Source: Caenispirillum bisanense
GTDB taxonomy: Bacteria > Pseudomonadota > Alphaproteobacteria > Rhodospirillales > UBA2165
Length of the DNA: 41,141 nt
Direction of reading: 5' to 3'
NCBI GenBank assembly: GCA_945877815.1
Contig: CAMDWJ010000036.1
Location: 1-41,141, forward strand
A program made the position numbers and the translations under genes. This document shows positions 501 to 10,411 of this stretch, piece after piece. How positions within the stretch are numbered: position 1 is the first letter of the stretch; each line of letters starts with the position of its first letter. The notes under the pieces were generated by a model. It did no database searches, was not told the DNA's origin, and saw only the letters and a program-made list of their open reading frames with translations.

Positions 501-562
501 TGGTGGCCCCGGCCGGACTCGAACCGGCACACCCGTTACCAGATAGCAGATTTTAAGTTTGC
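501..562 (-). other. 3' portion of a tRNA-Leu(TAA) gene; candidate att site
   Basis: Read on the minus strand, this segment gives an anticodon loop CTTAAAA (551-557, anticodon TAA), a long class-II variable arm, a perfect T arm (GCCGG, loop TTCGAGT, CCGGC), the 3' acceptor strand and an encoded CCA at 501-503. The 5' half is missing: upstream sequence gives neither the D arm nor a 7-base strand able to pair with the 3' acceptor strand, and the anticodon stem already has one mismatch on its 5' side. A tRNA fragment running from the anticodon loop to CCA is the classic duplicated attachment site of tyrosine-recombinase integrative elements. By the usual geometry the element would lie to the right of this fragment. 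Confidence 0.75.
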
Positions 563-632
563 TGGCCTAAAGGCAGGGGCTGATCGACGCGTTGAGGAAA
601 GCCTTTGCTATCGAATATTAGAATTAAATTCC

Positions 633-662
633 TTGACTCCAATCCTCCGATTCCGATATGTT
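633..662 (+). promoter_or_regulatory. Possible sigma70-type promoter for the terminase-like gene
   Basis: TTGACT at 633-638 is followed, after 18 bases, by TATGTT at 657-662. The segment is the most AT-rich part of the intergenic space and lies 52 bases upstream of the ATG at 715. This is a motif match only. Confidence 0.35.
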
Positions 663-714
663 CTTATTTTGTTCTATTTCAGCAACCCCAGGAACCAACC
701 AGCGGAGTCGCCCC

Positions 715-1203
715 ATGAGCGCGCTCAAACCGGCCTATGAAACCTTCTGCCAGTCCTATGTGATCTATCCCAATGCCACGGAGGCGGCGCGCGAGGCGGG
801 CTACGCCTTCGAACATGCGAGCCAGCAGGGCTATCGCCTGCTGCGTAAGGCCGCGATCGCGCGACGCATCGCGGAAGTGCGCGCCGAACTGGCCGAGCGC
901 GAGTGCCTGTCGCCCGACGCGCTGCTCACCAAGCTCGAAGCGGCCTTCCGATCCGCGTTGAAAGGCGGCCAAGCGGTCGCGGCGGCGCGCATCGTCGAAA
1001 TCCAGGCGAAACTCGCCGGCCTGCTCGCCAAGCCGGGCGGGGAAACCGCCGCGCGCGCCGCCCAGGATGCCCAGGCCCATTCCGCCACCCGTGCGGCGAT
1101 GGCCGTCATGGCCAAGCATCTCGGCTTGGCCGCTCCGCAATTCGAGCCCGCGCCGTCCGCGAAATCCCAGGCTGGCCGTGCGTCCGGCCGCGCGGCGGCG
1201 TGA
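715..1203 (+). CDS. Terminase small subunit-like DNA-binding protein
   Basis: A 162-residue protein starting at ATG 715, chosen because GGAG at 703-706 provides a ribosome-binding site and because similarity begins here; an upstream in-frame ATG at 658 would add a tail without recognisable features. The N-terminal 60 residues (YETFCQSYVIYPNATEAARE, then an AGY motif and a stretch LLRKAAIARRIAEVRAE) match the helix-turn-helix domain of phage terminase small subunits (Terminase_2 type), which recognise packaging sites on phage DNA. The remainder is alanine-rich and low in complexity. No large terminase subunit, portal or other phage gene is next to it, so it is an orphan, either a prophage remnant or cargo of the putative element whose boundary is the tRNA fragment at 501-562. 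Confidence 0.7.
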   Translation: MSALKPAYETFCQSYVIYPNATEAAREAGYAFEHASQQGYRLLRKAAIARRIAEVRAELAERECLSPDALLTKLEAAFRSALKGGQAVAAARIVEIQAKLAGLLAKPGGETAARAAQDAQAHSATRAAMAVMAKHLGLAAPQFEPAPSAKSQAGRASGRAAA

Positions 1204-1209
1204 ATTGAT

Positions 1210-1341
1210 GTCGAAGTCCGGTCGATCCGCCGTCGATAGTCTGTCGATGTTCGGACTATCCAATGTCGATGCGATGTCGATGCAATGTCGATCCCGTGTC
1301 GATCCCCGGTCGATCCAATGTCGACGGAGTGTCGATCGCGA
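1210..1341. repeat. Array of 12 GTCGAT units with exact 11-bp period
   Basis: The hexamer GTCGAT (or one-base variants) begins at 1210, 1221, 1232, 1243, 1265, 1276, 1287, 1298, 1309, 1320 and 1331, and the missing unit at 1254 is present in degenerate form as GACTAT. Each unit is GTCGAT plus five variable bases, with CCAAT or GCAAT recurring in the variable part. Eleven is not a multiple of three, so the periodicity is not a protein repeat. The array fills the space between the terminase-like gene and the 3' end of the MFS gene, followed by a 6-bp hairpin (CGCGCA/TGCGCG, 1347-1361). Confidence 0.9.
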
Positions 1342-1369: not shown

Positions 1370-2617
1370 CTATTCCGCCGGTTTCGGCGCGGGATTGATG
1401 TTGGGCAGCTTGACGAAGCGAGTCGAGGTCACGGTGGCGATGGCCACCAGATTGAAGATCGCGATCAGCCAATAGACGGCGTGTGGGCTGTCGAGATCGA
1501 TCAGCAGTCCGAACAAGATGGGGGCGATGGCGCCGCCGAGCGACATGCCGGTCGAGGCGAAGGCGAAGGCGGGGCCCGTGGTGCCCTTGGGCGACAAGGC
1601 CCGCACCATCATGTCGCGCGCCGGGCGTACGAAACCTTGCGCGAGCCCGGCCAGGATGAAGAGGCCGATGAGTGCCGCCTCGGAAAAGGTCATGAAGGCG
1701 AGCAGGGCGAAGATGATCGCCGAGCCGATGAAGGCGATCGCCGCCTGCCAATCGTGGCGCGTGGTTTTGTCGGCCGCCACACCGCCGATCAGGATGCCGG
1801 CGGTGACCGCGAACAGAAACGCGCTCAGGGCGGTGCCCGCGGTCTCGAGGCTGATGAACTGGATCTTGACGTTGACGACCTGGCTGAAGGCGGCGATGCC
1901 GCCGGACGCCAACGAGGCCACCATGAAGAAGGCGAACAGCATCACCATCGGGGCGGAGGTCATGAAGGCGACATTCTCGCGCCAGCCGAAAGCGGCGCTC
2001 GCGGCTTTCTTCGCGGCCGCGTCGCCCGCGTCGTGCTCGTCCTTCAAGATGCCGCCTTGCAACATCAGGAATGCGGCGACGATGAAGCCGAGCACGCCGA
2101 TCGCCATGACGGCGAATTGCCAATCGCGCATGGCGATGAGGAACACGAGCGTGGCCGGCGCGATGGCGCCGCCGAGATTGCCGGCGAAGGTATGCAGGCT
2201 GAAGGCCTTGCCCATGCGGCTCGGATCGATGGAGGACGATAGGATCGCGTAATCGGCAGGATGGAATACCGCGTTGCCGATTCCGGCGAGTGCCGCGAGG
2301 GCGAACAGCATGGGGATGGAGGTGGCGAGGCCCATGGCGGCGAAGGCGAACCCCGACAGGACGAGGCCTGCGACCAGAACGGCGCGGGCACCAATGCGGT
2401 CGACCAGCATGCCGGCCGGCACCTGGACGATCCCTGTCGCCAGCGTAAAGCAGGTGAGGATCGCGCCGAGCGTGGCGAAGCTCGCGCCGAAGGCGGTGTG
2501 CCAGACCAGGATCAGCGGCGCGAAACAGAGCTGATAGAAGTGGGAGAGGAAATGGCCAAGGCCGATAAGGCCCAGCACGCGGCCGTCGCGGGCGAGCGTG
2601 GGTGCCGCGGCGGTCAT
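1370..2617 (-). CDS. MFS transporter
   Basis: A 415-residue integral membrane protein with about twelve hydrophobic segments, consistent with the major facilitator superfamily. The signature between TM2 and TM3 is visible as GMLVDRIGARAVLVAG (G-x-x-x-D-R-x-G-x-R), and a related loop (ADKTTRHDW) follows the middle of the protein. ATG 2615-2617 is the likely start; a TTG two codons upstream (2621-2623) is an alternative. It is the last gene of the minus-strand run Bug receptor, bicupin, EutA-family protein, MFS, beginning 12 bases after the EutA-family stop, so it is probably co-transcribed. It could import the substrate of module A or export a product. The substrate cannot be read from sequence. 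Confidence 0.85.
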   Translation of the reverse strand: MTAAAPTLARDGRVLGLIGLGHFLSHFYQLCFAPLILVWHTAFGASFATLGAILTCFTLATGIVQVPAGMLVDRIGARAVLVAGLVLSGFAFAAMGLATSIPMLFALAALAGIGNAVFHPADYAILSSSIDPSRMGKAFSLHTFAGNLGGAIAPATLVFLIAMRDWQFAVMAIGVLGFIVAAFLMLQGGILKDEHDAGDAAAKKAASAAFGWRENVAFMTSAPMVMLFAFFMVASLASGGIAAFSQVVNVKIQFISLETAGTALSAFLFAVTAGILIGGVAADKTTRHDWQAAIAFIGSAIIFALLAFMTFSEAALIGLFILAGLAQGFVRPARDMMVRALSPKGTTGPAFAFASTGMSLGGAIAPILFGLLIDLDSPHAVYWLIAIFNLVAIATVTSTRFVKLPNINPAPKPAE

Positions 2618-2629
2618 GCGCAAGACGGT

Positions 2630-4243
2630 TCAATCGTGGCGATGGTGCCCGTGCCCATGATCGTGCCCGTGATCGTGCCCATGCTCATGCGTGTGCGAAC
2701 CGCCGTGATGATGCTGTCTTTCGGTCGTAGTGCCGTCCGAGGTGAAAAGCAACGACTTGATCACCAGGGGAACGACGTTGGCGGGCTGCACCGGTTCGCC
2801 GATATCGACGTAATCGAATTCGCGGAGCTGCAGGCCGTCGAGCGAGACGATCTCGCCCTGCACATCCAATTCCTCGCGCAGCAGGCGGCCGAGGGTTTTG
2901 GCGATATCGCCCTCCATGACCAGGATGAGGGGGCGGGCACTTTTCACGGTCTGCGGCAGGCCACGCGCGATCCCCTCGGCCAGCGCATGCAGGCGAGCAT
3001 GCGAAGGTTCGCCCTCCCACGCAAAGGCGAGCGCCATCGTGGTCTCGCCCTCGTCGATATCGAAGCGGGTGAGCGCCTTGGCGATCCCATCCTCGATCAC
3101 CGCGGGGTCGATCGGTCCAACGAGCCGGCCGGTCAGGCGGACCACCGGAATATTGCGGATCGGCAGGGACGCGGGGTTGGAGACATGCACCGTATTGCCC
3201 GACACCTGCACCGTGAATTGCGAGGCCCCCACGACCGTGGCACGGATGCCCTGGCCGGGATCGGACACGGGATAAGCGATGCGCTTGTCGGCGAGAGCCT
3301 TCGTTATTCCGGCGGCCAACTCGCGACCGAGATCGCCGTGATCGGTCGTCTCGCGGCCATAGACATATTCCGACACGCCGCCGGAAAAGGTGACGCCGTC
3401 GATACGCTCGTTTGCGGGCAAGGGGTCGGTCACCAGCAGCGCCTTGGTCAATGCATCGGGCCGCTCGCGCCGGATCGCCTTGACAAGCATATCGATCATG
3501 CGGCCGACCAGTTTTTCGCGCGCGTCCGGGGCAAGTCTCTCGCCGAGCGTCAGGACAATGCCGACATCCTTCGCGATGGTCCGCGCCGGCTCCTCGATGC
3601 GGATCATCGTGCCCTTGCCATCGAAGGCGACGAGGCGCCCGCCGACCGCGATGGCAGCCGAGTCCATCAGCTGCCCGCCATGCACGAGCGCGAATTTGGT
3701 GGTGCCGCCGCCGATATCGACATTGAGGAAGGTCTTGTGCTGGACGCGGGACAATTCCACCGCGCCCGAACCGTGCGCCGCCATCAGCGCTTCGAGATGG
3801 TGCCCGGCCGAAGCGCAGACGAACTTGCCCGATTGATCGGCGAACAGATCGGCGATGGCACGCGCGTTGGTGCGCTTGAGCGCTTCGCCAGTCAGGATCA
3901 CGGCGCCCGAATCGATGTCGCCGCGCGTAAGGTTGGCGTCGCGATAGGCTGCCTCGACGAAGGCGCGCAACGCCTCGGAGTCTATCGTGAAGTCGGAGCG
4001 GTAAGGAGTGAGCAGGATCGGCGAGCACCACAGGATTTCGCGTCCGACCACGATGAAACGGCTCGAGAGCGCGTCGGCCAGGCGCTGCAGATGGACGCGC
4101 GCGAACATGAGATGCGAGGTGGACGAGCCAACATCGACGCCGACGGTGGTGAAGATCACGTTGTCGACGCCCCAGATGGCGTCGCTCAGGATTTCGCGTT
4201 CTTCCGGGGTCGTGTGGAAATGATCGAAATCGAGATCGTGCAT
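2630..4243 (-). CDS. EutA-family reactivating ATPase with His-rich C-terminal tail (module A)
   Basis: A 537-residue protein of the EutA family (ASKHA/Hsp70-like fold), known as the reactivase that frees ethanolamine ammonia-lyase from damaged cobalamin. Phosphate-binding loops are seen as GVDVGSSTSH (residues 35-44) and NVDIGGGTTK (174-183), the adenosine-side motif as FSGGVSEY (286-293), and the family's C-terminal block as FDYVDIG...VVPLVIKSL. Genuine EutA is about 470 residues; the excess here is an N-terminal extension and a C-terminal tail in which 14 of the last 27 residues are histidine, likely a metal-binding or metal-storage segment. The ATG directly abuts the TAG stop of the upstream bicupin, indicating translational coupling. 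No EutB/EutC ammonia-lyase or cobalamin enzyme is visible in the window, so the client protein is unknown. A second copy lies at 25026-26510. Confidence 0.85.
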   Translation of the reverse strand: MHDLDFDHFHTTPEEREILSDAIWGVDNVIFTTVGVDVGSSTSHLMFARVHLQRLADALSSRFIVVGREILWCSPILLTPYRSDFTIDSEALRAFVEAAYRDANLTRGDIDSGAVILTGEALKRTNARAIADLFADQSGKFVCASAGHHLEALMAAHGSGAVELSRVQHKTFLNVDIGGGTTKFALVHGGQLMDSAAIAVGGRLVAFDGKGTMIRIEEPARTIAKDVGIVLTLGERLAPDAREKLVGRMIDMLVKAIRRERPDALTKALLVTDPLPANERIDGVTFSGGVSEYVYGRETTDHGDLGRELAAGITKALADKRIAYPVSDPGQGIRATVVGASQFTVQVSGNTVHVSNPASLPIRNIPVVRLTGRLVGPIDPAVIEDGIAKALTRFDIDEGETTMALAFAWEGEPSHARLHALAEGIARGLPQTVKSARPLILVMEGDIAKTLGRLLREELDVQGEIVSLDGLQLREFDYVDIGEPVQPANVVPLVIKSLLFTSDGTTTERQHHHGGSHTHEHGHDHGHDHGHGHHRHD

Positions 4244-9265: not shown

Positions 9266-9852
9266 GCTGCGCGCCGTATCGGTATGATCGCGAGCGCACC
9301 GATCACGACCGAGATTGCAATGAGACCGTAGAGAATTTGATTCACCTCGAACCACAGGACCAGATAGAAGGATGTGAAGATCGTGCCGGCGGCACTGCCG
9401 AATGTCGAGATGAAGAAGAGCTTGCCGGCATATTGCCCGCTTTTGTGTAGATCTGTGACGAGCAGGCGTACGGCATAGGGCGACACCATGCCCGAGATGA
9501 GTGTAGGCACGAAGAAGAGCAGGCTAGCCGCCGCGAGCGCGCCGTAGCGCACATCGACGATATGGGCAAAAATCCAATCGAGCACGGGTTCTGAGATCAG
9601 AACCGACGCAAAAGTCGTTACGGATTGCGCGAGCAGGATCGCGCCGAGAATCGCGGGCTGCGCCCGCCAAGCCGATATATATCCGCCGAGCAGATATCCT
9701 ATCGCCAACGCGGTCATGAAAACCGCGATCAACGCGCCCCAAACGGAAACGCTGCTGCCGAAGTCGGACGCCAGAACACGCCCGCCGAGCAATTCATAGG
9801 ACATGACGAAGAAACCGGACCAGCCCGCCAGGATGTAGACGACGGGCGCCAC
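9262..9852 (-). CDS. Membrane partner of the spermidine synthase-like protein
   Basis: A 196-residue protein that is hydrophobic throughout, with about six membrane helices, beginning VYILAGWSGFFVMSYELLGGRVLASDFGSS. The sequence SYELLGGRxLAxxFGSS is typical of the first segment of the membrane half of fused MFS/spermidine-synthase proteins. The start is GTG 9850-9852, two bases after the TAA of the upstream cupin gene. Its stop overlaps the start of the soluble half, so the pair probably forms one membrane-bound complex. No transport function can be claimed. Confidence 0.75.
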   Translation of the reverse strand: MAPVVYILAGWSGFFVMSYELLGGRVLASDFGSSVSVWGALIAVFMTALAIGYLLGGYISAWRAQPAILGAILLAQSVTTFASVLISEPVLDWIFAHIVDVRYGALAAASLLFFVPTLISGMVSPYAVRLLVTDLHKSGQYAGKLFFISTFGSAAGTIFTSFYLVLWFEVNQILYGLIAISVVIGALAIIPIRRAA

Positions 9853-9853
9853 G

Positions 9854-10411
9854 TTACTTGGTGTAGCCTTCGGCCGTTTCCAACTGGTCGAACCAATCGA
9901 AGCCCATCGCCTTGACGATGCGGCTGGTGATGCACAGGAACCGGGCTTCGCTGCCGTCGTTGGCGAAGTGCTGATGTGCGCAATAGGGCGGGATATAGAC
10001 GAAGTCGCCGGTCTTCCAGTCGAAGCGCTTGGGTTCGGTCTCCCAATCCCATTCGAAGGTGTCGAAACATTCGAACTTAACGTCCCAGTGCAGATCGTAA
10101 CCGGATCCTTCGAGAACGAAGACGACCTCCTCGGTCAGATGCCGGTGCTTGCCAGATTTGCCGCCGGGCTTGAGGAACTGCATATAGGCGTCGACACAAC
10201 ATTCGACCGTATCCATGCGCTCGTTGATCACGTGTTTGATCAGCCCGTCTGGCGAATTTTCGTAGGGCATCGCCTCGGACGGCACGAGCTTCATTCGGGT
10301 CGCATAATCGGCGCGGAATTGTTGCGAGGCTTTTAGGGCTTCGGCGTAGAAATCCACTTCGCCCGCGCCAAGGCGCGCGCGTACGGGATCGTCGATATGT
10401 TTCAGGACCAT
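9854..10411 (-). CDS. Single-domain cupin protein
   Basis: A 185-residue protein with one complete cupin fold: KHRHLTEEVVFVLEGSG (HxH, Glu) and PPYCAHQHFAN (second-motif His), the full set of metal ligands. The HQHFxN second motif is the same as in the C-terminal domains of the bicupins in this window, suggesting common descent. The preceding 70 residues are charged and helical. The ATG at 10409-10411 lies two bases after the TAA of the upstream cupin gene. Likely a metal-dependent dioxygenase-like or sensor protein that may pair with its neighbour as a heteromer. The substrate is not recognisable. Confidence 0.8.
   Translation of the reverse strand: MVLKHIDDPVRARLGAGEVDFYAEALKASQQFRADYATRMKLVPSEAMPYENSPDGLIKHVINERMDTVECCVDAYMQFLKPGGKSGKHRHLTEEVVFVLEGSGYDLHWDVKFECFDTFEWDWETEPKRFDWKTGDFVYIPPYCAHQHFANDGSEARFLCITSRIVKAMGFDWFDQLETAEGYTK

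Follow-up and report, generated by a model that had tools for sequence, protein, structure and literature searches.

In the window (the whole stretch of 41,141 nucleotides analysed here), we have found that a gene for a terminase-small-subunit (TerS)-like protein is directly followed by an array of short words phased at exactly 11 bp, and that arrays of this kind recur over the whole genome and behind homologous genes of relatives. The arrays, their pitch, their word families, a promoter, LexA-like boxes and the association with TerS-like genes are all seen directly in the sequences. Overall, the preliminary description of this DNA, which had dealt with the window array and its neighbouring gene, holds in essence, yet the phenomenon is genome-wide: beyond the view from the window there are about 26 arrays in the genome, a promoter common to most of them, LexA-like boxes and words specific to each genome. 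The reading that we favour, and consider fairly probable from this sequence evidence, is that the TerS-like protein, encoded on the chromosome, binds the DNA of its own phased array with one HTH per helical turn, probably wrapping the DNA. The window features concerned are as follows.

501..558, minus strand: fragment like the 3' half of a tRNA-Leu(TAA) gene, by our own reading of the sequence
616..662, plus strand: promoter-like region, TATTAGAATTAAATTCCTTGACT-N18-TATGTT, which by eye resembles the promoter common to the dispersed arrays
660..674, plus strand: LexA (SOS)-box-like site GTTCTTATTTTGTTC (GTTC-N7-GTTC), one of 15 own-genome matches to GTTCYTDWWWTGTTC
715..1203, plus strand: TerS-like protein of 162 aa, with an N-terminal HTH, a helical hairpin and a low-confidence C-terminal tail
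1210..1341, plus strand: 12-unit array with core (A)TGTCGAT and a pitch of exactly 11 bp, from sequence reading and resampling

The units of the window array start at 1210, 1221 and so forth up to 1331, 12 in number and with zero slips, between the stop of the reading frame 715–1203 and the 3' end of an MFS gene (1370–2623, minus strand). GTCGAT is matched at 68 of the 72 hexamer positions, compared with 33–38 in 20 first-order Markov resamplings of the whole window; the twelve GTCGAT-like hexamers at an exact 11-bp pitch, as claimed in the preliminary description, are thus real and far beyond chance. Nine of the 12 hexamers are exact, and the three variants are GTCGAA at 1210, GACTAT at 1254 (two changes) and GTCGAC at 1320. 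At each of the five spacer positions, the majority base occurs in 4–7 of the 12 units. In addition, the window has 9 matches to GTCGATN5GTCGAT with at most one mismatch, every one inside the array (expected 0.60; maximum of 3 over 100 shuffles). Further along the window, a EutA-family gene (2630–4243; PF06277, 4.7e-121) stands beside a cupin-domain gene; its matches to FtsA/MreB profiles are all below their cut-offs, and a reading frame near it resembles, by eye, a TctC-type binding protein.

Such arrays are dispersed over the window's own genome (G000; 3.98 Mb in 84 contigs, with C36 as the window contig). A run of three exact GTCGAT at 11-bp pitch is found 37 times, spread over 15 loci; the reversed control pattern has 0 matches. 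The pair pattern (two exact GTCGAT) adds one further array, on C57, and six isolated pairs, i.e., those of the 61 pair matches that lie outside arrays, of which the three inspected have 2 units each. With a minimum of 6 units and two adjacent exact hexamers required, the search for GTCGATN5 arrays elsewhere in the genome, which had been proposed beforehand, gives a census of 16 arrays, the window array included. Nine of them have 11 units, five have 12, one has 10 and one has 9. The pooled unit reads G (98%), T (88%), C (87%), G (87%), A (92%), T (84%), four weak positions and T (75%). Between neighbouring units the hexamer is 0.80 identical and the spacer 0.42, which agrees with the earlier claim that the hexamer is conserved above the spacer. 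The GTCGAT triple pattern is found in 3 of 60 genomes, the own one included: G000, its congener G001 (3 matches) and G044 (1 match).

About 10 further G000 arrays have other words at the same pitch, for a total of about 26, both figures by reading. These non-GTCGAT types came to light by visual reading at loci that a promoter match, a LexA box or a TerS gene had pointed to; at L071 and L077, the lag score over 88 bases is not above other lags in their loci. Three arrays directly follow TerS-like genes, on C36, C22 and C39. A TerS-like gene at every array was rejected, since the genome has only four such genes; for the fourth, on C3, no array was detected (p 0.24). Inverted units, which suit duplex DNA better than RNA, were read in the arrays behind the C22 and C39 genes as well as in L077 and L125. 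The array of L125 (G001:C2), which stands after a TerS gene, switches orientation, with TCGACA units and then TGTCGA units. Bipartite arrays, with 11-bp and 10-bp stretches of the same words about 50 bp apart, were read in L060, L056, L175 and L177. A coding origin of the arrays was rejected: ORFs of at least 100 aa overlap some arrays and, going by ORF positions, are not common to the copies, and that 11 is not a multiple of 3 also counts against it. The idea of a Rho site (regularly spaced YC) was dropped on reading because several word types lack YC.

A promoter, AATTGGAATTATTTTCTTGACT-N18-TAGACT or a variant, lies upstream of 13 of the 15 GTCGAT arrays outside the window; the C9 and C14 arrays are without it, and that of C19 (L044), among the 13, matches at 15 of 22 positions only. 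Mean pairwise identity among the 13 is 88% in the −35/UP block and 85% in the −10 block, compared with 50% in the spacer between −35 and −10, 47% in the leader and 27% further upstream, and the distance from −35 to −10 is 18 in 12 of them. A G000 search with the promoter 22-mer, allowing up to three mismatches, gives 20 matches (control: 0), all of which precede an array (one of them short) or a TerS-like gene. By position or reading, 12 stand before GTCGAT arrays, 5 before arrays of ATGCACACANN/ATGCCTAGANN/ATGCGAAGANN units (about three units at L071), 1 before an ATGTAGAGNNN array and 2 before TerS-like genes. Promoter and array are on the same strand, and the promoter blocks of the dispersed arrays look selected. 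The promoter-like region of the window at 616–662 is absent from the 20 matches, being looser and having one extra base.

The product of 715–1203 matches Pfam Terminase_2 (PF03592) over the HTH domain (4e-14, 53.9 bits; cut-off 26.1) and PHROG 51 (4.7e-19), and a PDB profile search gives the SF6 TerS 4zc3 (9.5e-11) as the nearest solved structure. Its AlphaFold2 monomer model has a mean pLDDT of 79.5, with a weak C-terminal part; the top Foldseek match of the model is also 4zc3, the DNA-binding domain of the SF6 small terminase (E 0.021, probability 1.00), and no Foldseek match is below E 0.001. The tRNA-Leu-like fragment at 501–558 is a possible integration-site remnant. A 58-base stretch of it is repeated at G000:C51:21484-21541 with 98% identity; neither copy is called by ARAGORN or Rfam, and an intact tRNA-Leu source was looked for and not found. 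No tRNA, tmRNA or Rfam family was found in the window or the scanned related loci (for Rfam, the window and 14 loci).

A passage of PMC6237742 gives GTTC-N7-GTTC as the Caulobacter SOS box. The tight pattern GTTCYTDWWWTGTTC has 15 matches in G000 and 0 for the reversed-pattern control, and 6 of these lie ahead of an array or a TerS-like gene (C36, C22, C9, C14, C1:52815 and C10:3735). The box search also added L185 and L188, with one array each of the ATGCACACANN/ATGCCTAGANN/ATGCGAAGANN type and the ATGTAGAGNNN type. A box lies within 250 bp upstream of 6 of up to 50 non-phage-type TerS genes, with 0.16 expected, and none lies within 260 bp of the 13 promoter-bearing GTCGAT arrays. Going by such boxes, the TerS-like genes and some arrays are probably SOS-induced.

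Homologues of the window protein are present in 39 of the 150 genomes searched, its own included, and in 16 public-assembly loci, which are mostly from Rhodospirillales, Rhodospirillaceae, Defluviicoccus, Alphaproteobacteria or Proteobacteria, with one metagenome assembly. With paralogues added, 69 loci had a parsed TerS reading frame; they were reduced to 50 distinct non-phage-type and 4 phage-type genes, the phage-type label being based on a short protein motif. Six loci with a short flank or short protein (L097, L117, L136, L138, L141 and L143) and nine duplicates (L111, L112, L114, L115, L119, L122, L126, L127 and L131) were skipped. Within 150 bp after the stop, a lag-10/11/12 array is found at p<0.05 for 28 of the 50 non-phage-type genes, which include close relatives and are not independent, and at p<0.01 for 21 of them; three control lag sets give 3, 2 and 0 of the same 50 at p<0.05 (500 resamplings for the array test, 200 for the control lags). 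That is, the tie of the phased array to the neighbouring TerS-like gene, proposed from the window, extends to homologues, and arrays are not absent beside them, the outcome that the preliminary description had named as speaking against the tie.

The best lag in the 28 positives is 10 (18 genes), 11 (8) or 12 (2), each near one turn of B-DNA. For L083 and L084, the lag-12 signal consists of 6-bp GCCGTT runs, and 26 of the 50 are positive without them; L098, L103 and L116 look weak on inspection, and in some cases the scored array overlaps the final codons of the TerS-like gene. Many arrays are short, with 3–4 units. For the other 22 of the 50 genes, the 150 bp behind the stop are without an array; L100, L104 and L105 among them have matching arrays further downstream, and others, C3 included, seem to have none. 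None of the 4 phage-type genes has an array. L144, where a phage-type TerS gene is followed by an apparent large terminase (by reading), is without one.

The array words differ between genomes and between paralogues. Near the stop, for example, we find GACGAC in L110 and L122, GGTCGCC in L121 and L123, TGACATNTGC in L085, L134 and L135, and GTCCAT in L099 and L132. In G000, the C36, C22 and C39 genes each have words of their own, and the dispersed arrays can be grouped to match: the C36 gene, i.e., that of the window, goes with the GTCGAT arrays; the C22 gene and six other arrays, one of them short, have GCACAC/GCCTAG/GCGAAG words; and for C39 the match is approximate (GTCGAG/GCCTAT versus GTAGAG). 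Dispersed arrays carry the word of the local TerS gene in 4 of the 5 relatives in which that word was searched for (G011, G015, G017 and G150; not G012). GTCCATN4 x3 occurs 48, 38 and 4 times in G011, G015 and G017 (33, 31 and 3 sites by our grouping), with one site in each genome within about 400 bp downstream of a TerS gene, and 0 times in G000, G002 and G012. In G012, there are TerS genes with GTCCAT-like words, yet no match to three exact hexamers anywhere in the genome. GACGACN5 x3 is found at three G150 loci, one of them after a TerS gene, and is absent in G000 and G001. Over the 28 array-bearing genes, HTH similarity correlates with array-word similarity (Mantel r 0.38, p 0.0002), a correlation confounded by common descent.

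From these observations, we infer array binding by the protein in a ring or a filament, together with the SOS induction. The window array would be the cognate multi-site target of the TerS-like protein encoded just upstream, with each 11-bp unit offering one word, (A)TGTCGAT, to be read by the HTH of one TerS subunit; the constant pitch near one turn would put all sites on one face of the helix. Since TerS rings have 8–12 subunits (PMC9611059) with outward HTHs, the likeliest complex would be one oligomer with the array DNA wrapped outside, one subunit per helical turn, and a head-to-tail filament would be the alternative geometry. The unit number of 14 of the 16 GTCGAT arrays, 11 or 12, is comparable to known TerS ring sizes; that of the short arrays (3–4 units) is too small for a complete ring. 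About two dozen further arrays, mostly promoter-bearing and without a TerS gene, would be trans targets at scattered sites, so that the protein would assemble an identical nucleoprotein structure at each of them, and these many sites would titrate it. Nucleosome-like wrapping has already been proposed for TerS rings and is discussed by Greive et al. in a passage of PMC4737164, which also describes the binding of pac DNA by the SF6 TerS DNA-binding domain in vitro as weak and little specific. This weak binding, the short arrays, the array-less TerS-like genes and the miss in G012 count against the TerS–array explanation, and the conserved promoters on gene-less arrays are unexplained by DNA binding alone.

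Plasmid centromeres of type II (ParR/parC) and type III (TubR/tubC) likewise combine a small DNA-binding protein with arrays of short iterons. The iteron pitch of R1 parC is 11 bp. A section of PMC5016525 describes a 10-bp pitch, with DNA wrapped on a ParR superhelix, one dimer per iteron and repression of the own promoter. The pitch found here (exactly 11 bp in the window, 10–12 in homologues) is that of ParR/parC-type iterons, about 10–11 bp. On the other hand, ParR is a ribbon-helix-helix protein whereas the window protein has a terminase-type HTH, and the present arrays lie downstream of the gene and scattered over the chromosome, with no motor partner known. For BldC of Streptomyces, an excerpt of PMC5859096 reports head-to-tail cooperative HTH binding to direct repeats, whose number varies, with protected tracts at intervals of one helical turn; BldC differs in being MerR-like and of an unrelated family, in regulating gene promoters and in having few repeats.

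The purpose is the least certain part of the TerS–array explanation, the candidates being the organisation or marking of the chromosome after DNA damage, interference with phage packaging, and a self-serving element. In one elaborated version, which we regard as doubtful, SOS-induced rings of TerS, an ex-phage packaging protein, would wrap the roughly two dozen phased arrays, with a private word for each genome or paralogue, and, once a phage brings in its large terminase, the wrapped sites could serve it as decoys or pac-like starting points, so that host DNA is packaged instead.

The main rival, to which we give a modest chance, is a sponge RNA: the TerS-like protein would bind the repeated words as RNA, both in the 3' UTR of its own gene and in transcripts of stand-alone arrays, and the latter would titrate it. 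Stand-alone sponge RNAs are known in CsrB/CsrC, which have many copies of a protein-binding motif in stem-loops, and CsrB titrates CsrA. The promoter-like conserved blocks before the arrays may be likened to those of a CsrB-type RNA, and the conserved promoter on thirteen dispersed arrays, unexplained above, is the strongest point for an RNA role; the co-orientation of promoter and array also suits it, as does an arginine-rich C-terminal tail in three TerS-like paralogues. The folds of the arrays alone are slightly stable (mean z −1.09; single copies to −4.7; window copy −2.6). However, the array with 60 nt has a mean z of −0.45, compared with −0.17 for the reverse complement (17 arrays; window copy −2.9), and no consistent RNA structure is seen over these 17 arrays, unlike the stem-loops of CsrB/CsrC. 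In addition, the periods are confined to 10–12, inverted units occur, and the protein, unlike the partner in CsrB/CsrC, is an HTH protein, with an HTH of DNA type.

A rather improbable second rival is that TerS and array together are a mobile, self-serving repeat, the dispersed promoter–array copies being non-autonomous derivatives kept by spread and conversion and not by use. REP/RAYT systems are similar in that dispersed short repeats are tied to one genomic gene family, and different in that REPs are palindromic and their partner is transposase-like. The dispersed copies are homologous beyond the word, with common flanks and degenerate units, and hence arose by copying, as this rival supposes. 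It may also draw on the comparison of G011 with G015, where the element leader is 86% alike and the better flank 96% (21 pairs), and where the 18 pairs scored at both flanks comprise 7 with two matching flanks, 10 with a single one and 1 unclear case. However, a partner in G015 with a matching flank exists for 22 of the 33 G011 elements, so that many are inherited; the promoter blocks look selected; and the one-sided flank matches of the GTCCAT elements (L200–L263) may be rearrangement hotspots or assembly joins, several contigs ending at elements. Many G011/G015 elements, L145, L146 and L148 among them, have a very small conserved reading frame after GGAGG, like MQFCTNYLGGTSQTGVIKCP (translated by eye), and its stop lies inside the array; this region could equally be a conserved hairpin around GGGAGGTACCTCCC.

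That the array is a phage pac site or prophage remnant, i.e., an old packaging start beside a terminase gene and without present use, seems very improbable. The protein's place in the TerS family, its profile matches to TerS families of phages and the tRNA-like fragment nearby would fit it, and so would the pac site of SPP1, which according to a passage of PMC4737164 contains direct repeats and extends across the beginning of the small terminase gene. The SF6/SPP1 G1P TerS and its pac indeed have the same family (PF03592) and HTH, a target beside the own gene and repeated sites, but the present system is chromosomal, is without a Terminase_6N partner and has many sites per genome; it also has exact helical phasing with one word per turn, whereas the SF6 domain is described in the same passage as having little sequence preference in vitro. 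The packaging locus considered in the preliminary description is not supported, as the Terminase_6N (PF03237) large subunit is absent in G000 (it is found in 6 of 14 control genomes). Moreover, tblastn with the TerS gives 0 matches in 50,697 phage and 72,556 plasmid records, there is no confirmed relative among 98 IMG/VR pattern matches, the neighbours of L113, L118 and L122 are, by eye, ordinary chromosomal genes, and many arrays with TerS-dependent words would be unexpected of remnants. The SaPI/PICI TerS (operon I) is a small terminase homologue under LexA control, as stated in a section of PMC11442139; it packages the island's own DNA, whereas the arrays here are dispersed. On the viral contig L272, four GTCGATCCACG repeats (9437–9475) lie about 300 bp from a TerS-like gene (9775–10167).

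Replication slippage of the 11-bp unit, the alternative named in the preliminary description and one that an 11-bp tandem array by definition invites, has a negligible probability and is excluded by the variable spacers, since the neighbouring-spacer identity of 0.42 in the 16 G000 arrays contrasts with 0.7–1.0 in ten GTCGATN5 x4 viral contigs, which are apparent slippage arrays, and the sixteen loci have a common word with different spacers.

In our searches of an open-access collection of published papers, we have not found a description of such a system. Its component parts are of known kinds; what is, as far as we have found, apparently undescribed is their joint occurrence, with a TerS-like gene on the chromosome, a phased array behind it and matching arrays dispersed elsewhere. 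For DNA recognition by TerS rings, competing models are presented in part of a 2022 review (PMC9611059), and the repeats of SPP1/SF6 did not explain TerS recognition, according to a passage of PMC4737164. The arrays beside the chromosomal homologues are natural candidate TerS targets, with one word per turn and often 11–12 units, and they provide matched protein–word pairs from many genomes, with several pairs in one cell; the wrapping model thereby becomes directly testable, and an HTH-to-word code could emerge. If the dispersed arrays work as proposed, they would constitute an undescribed, genome-wide and apparently SOS-linked nucleoprotein system.
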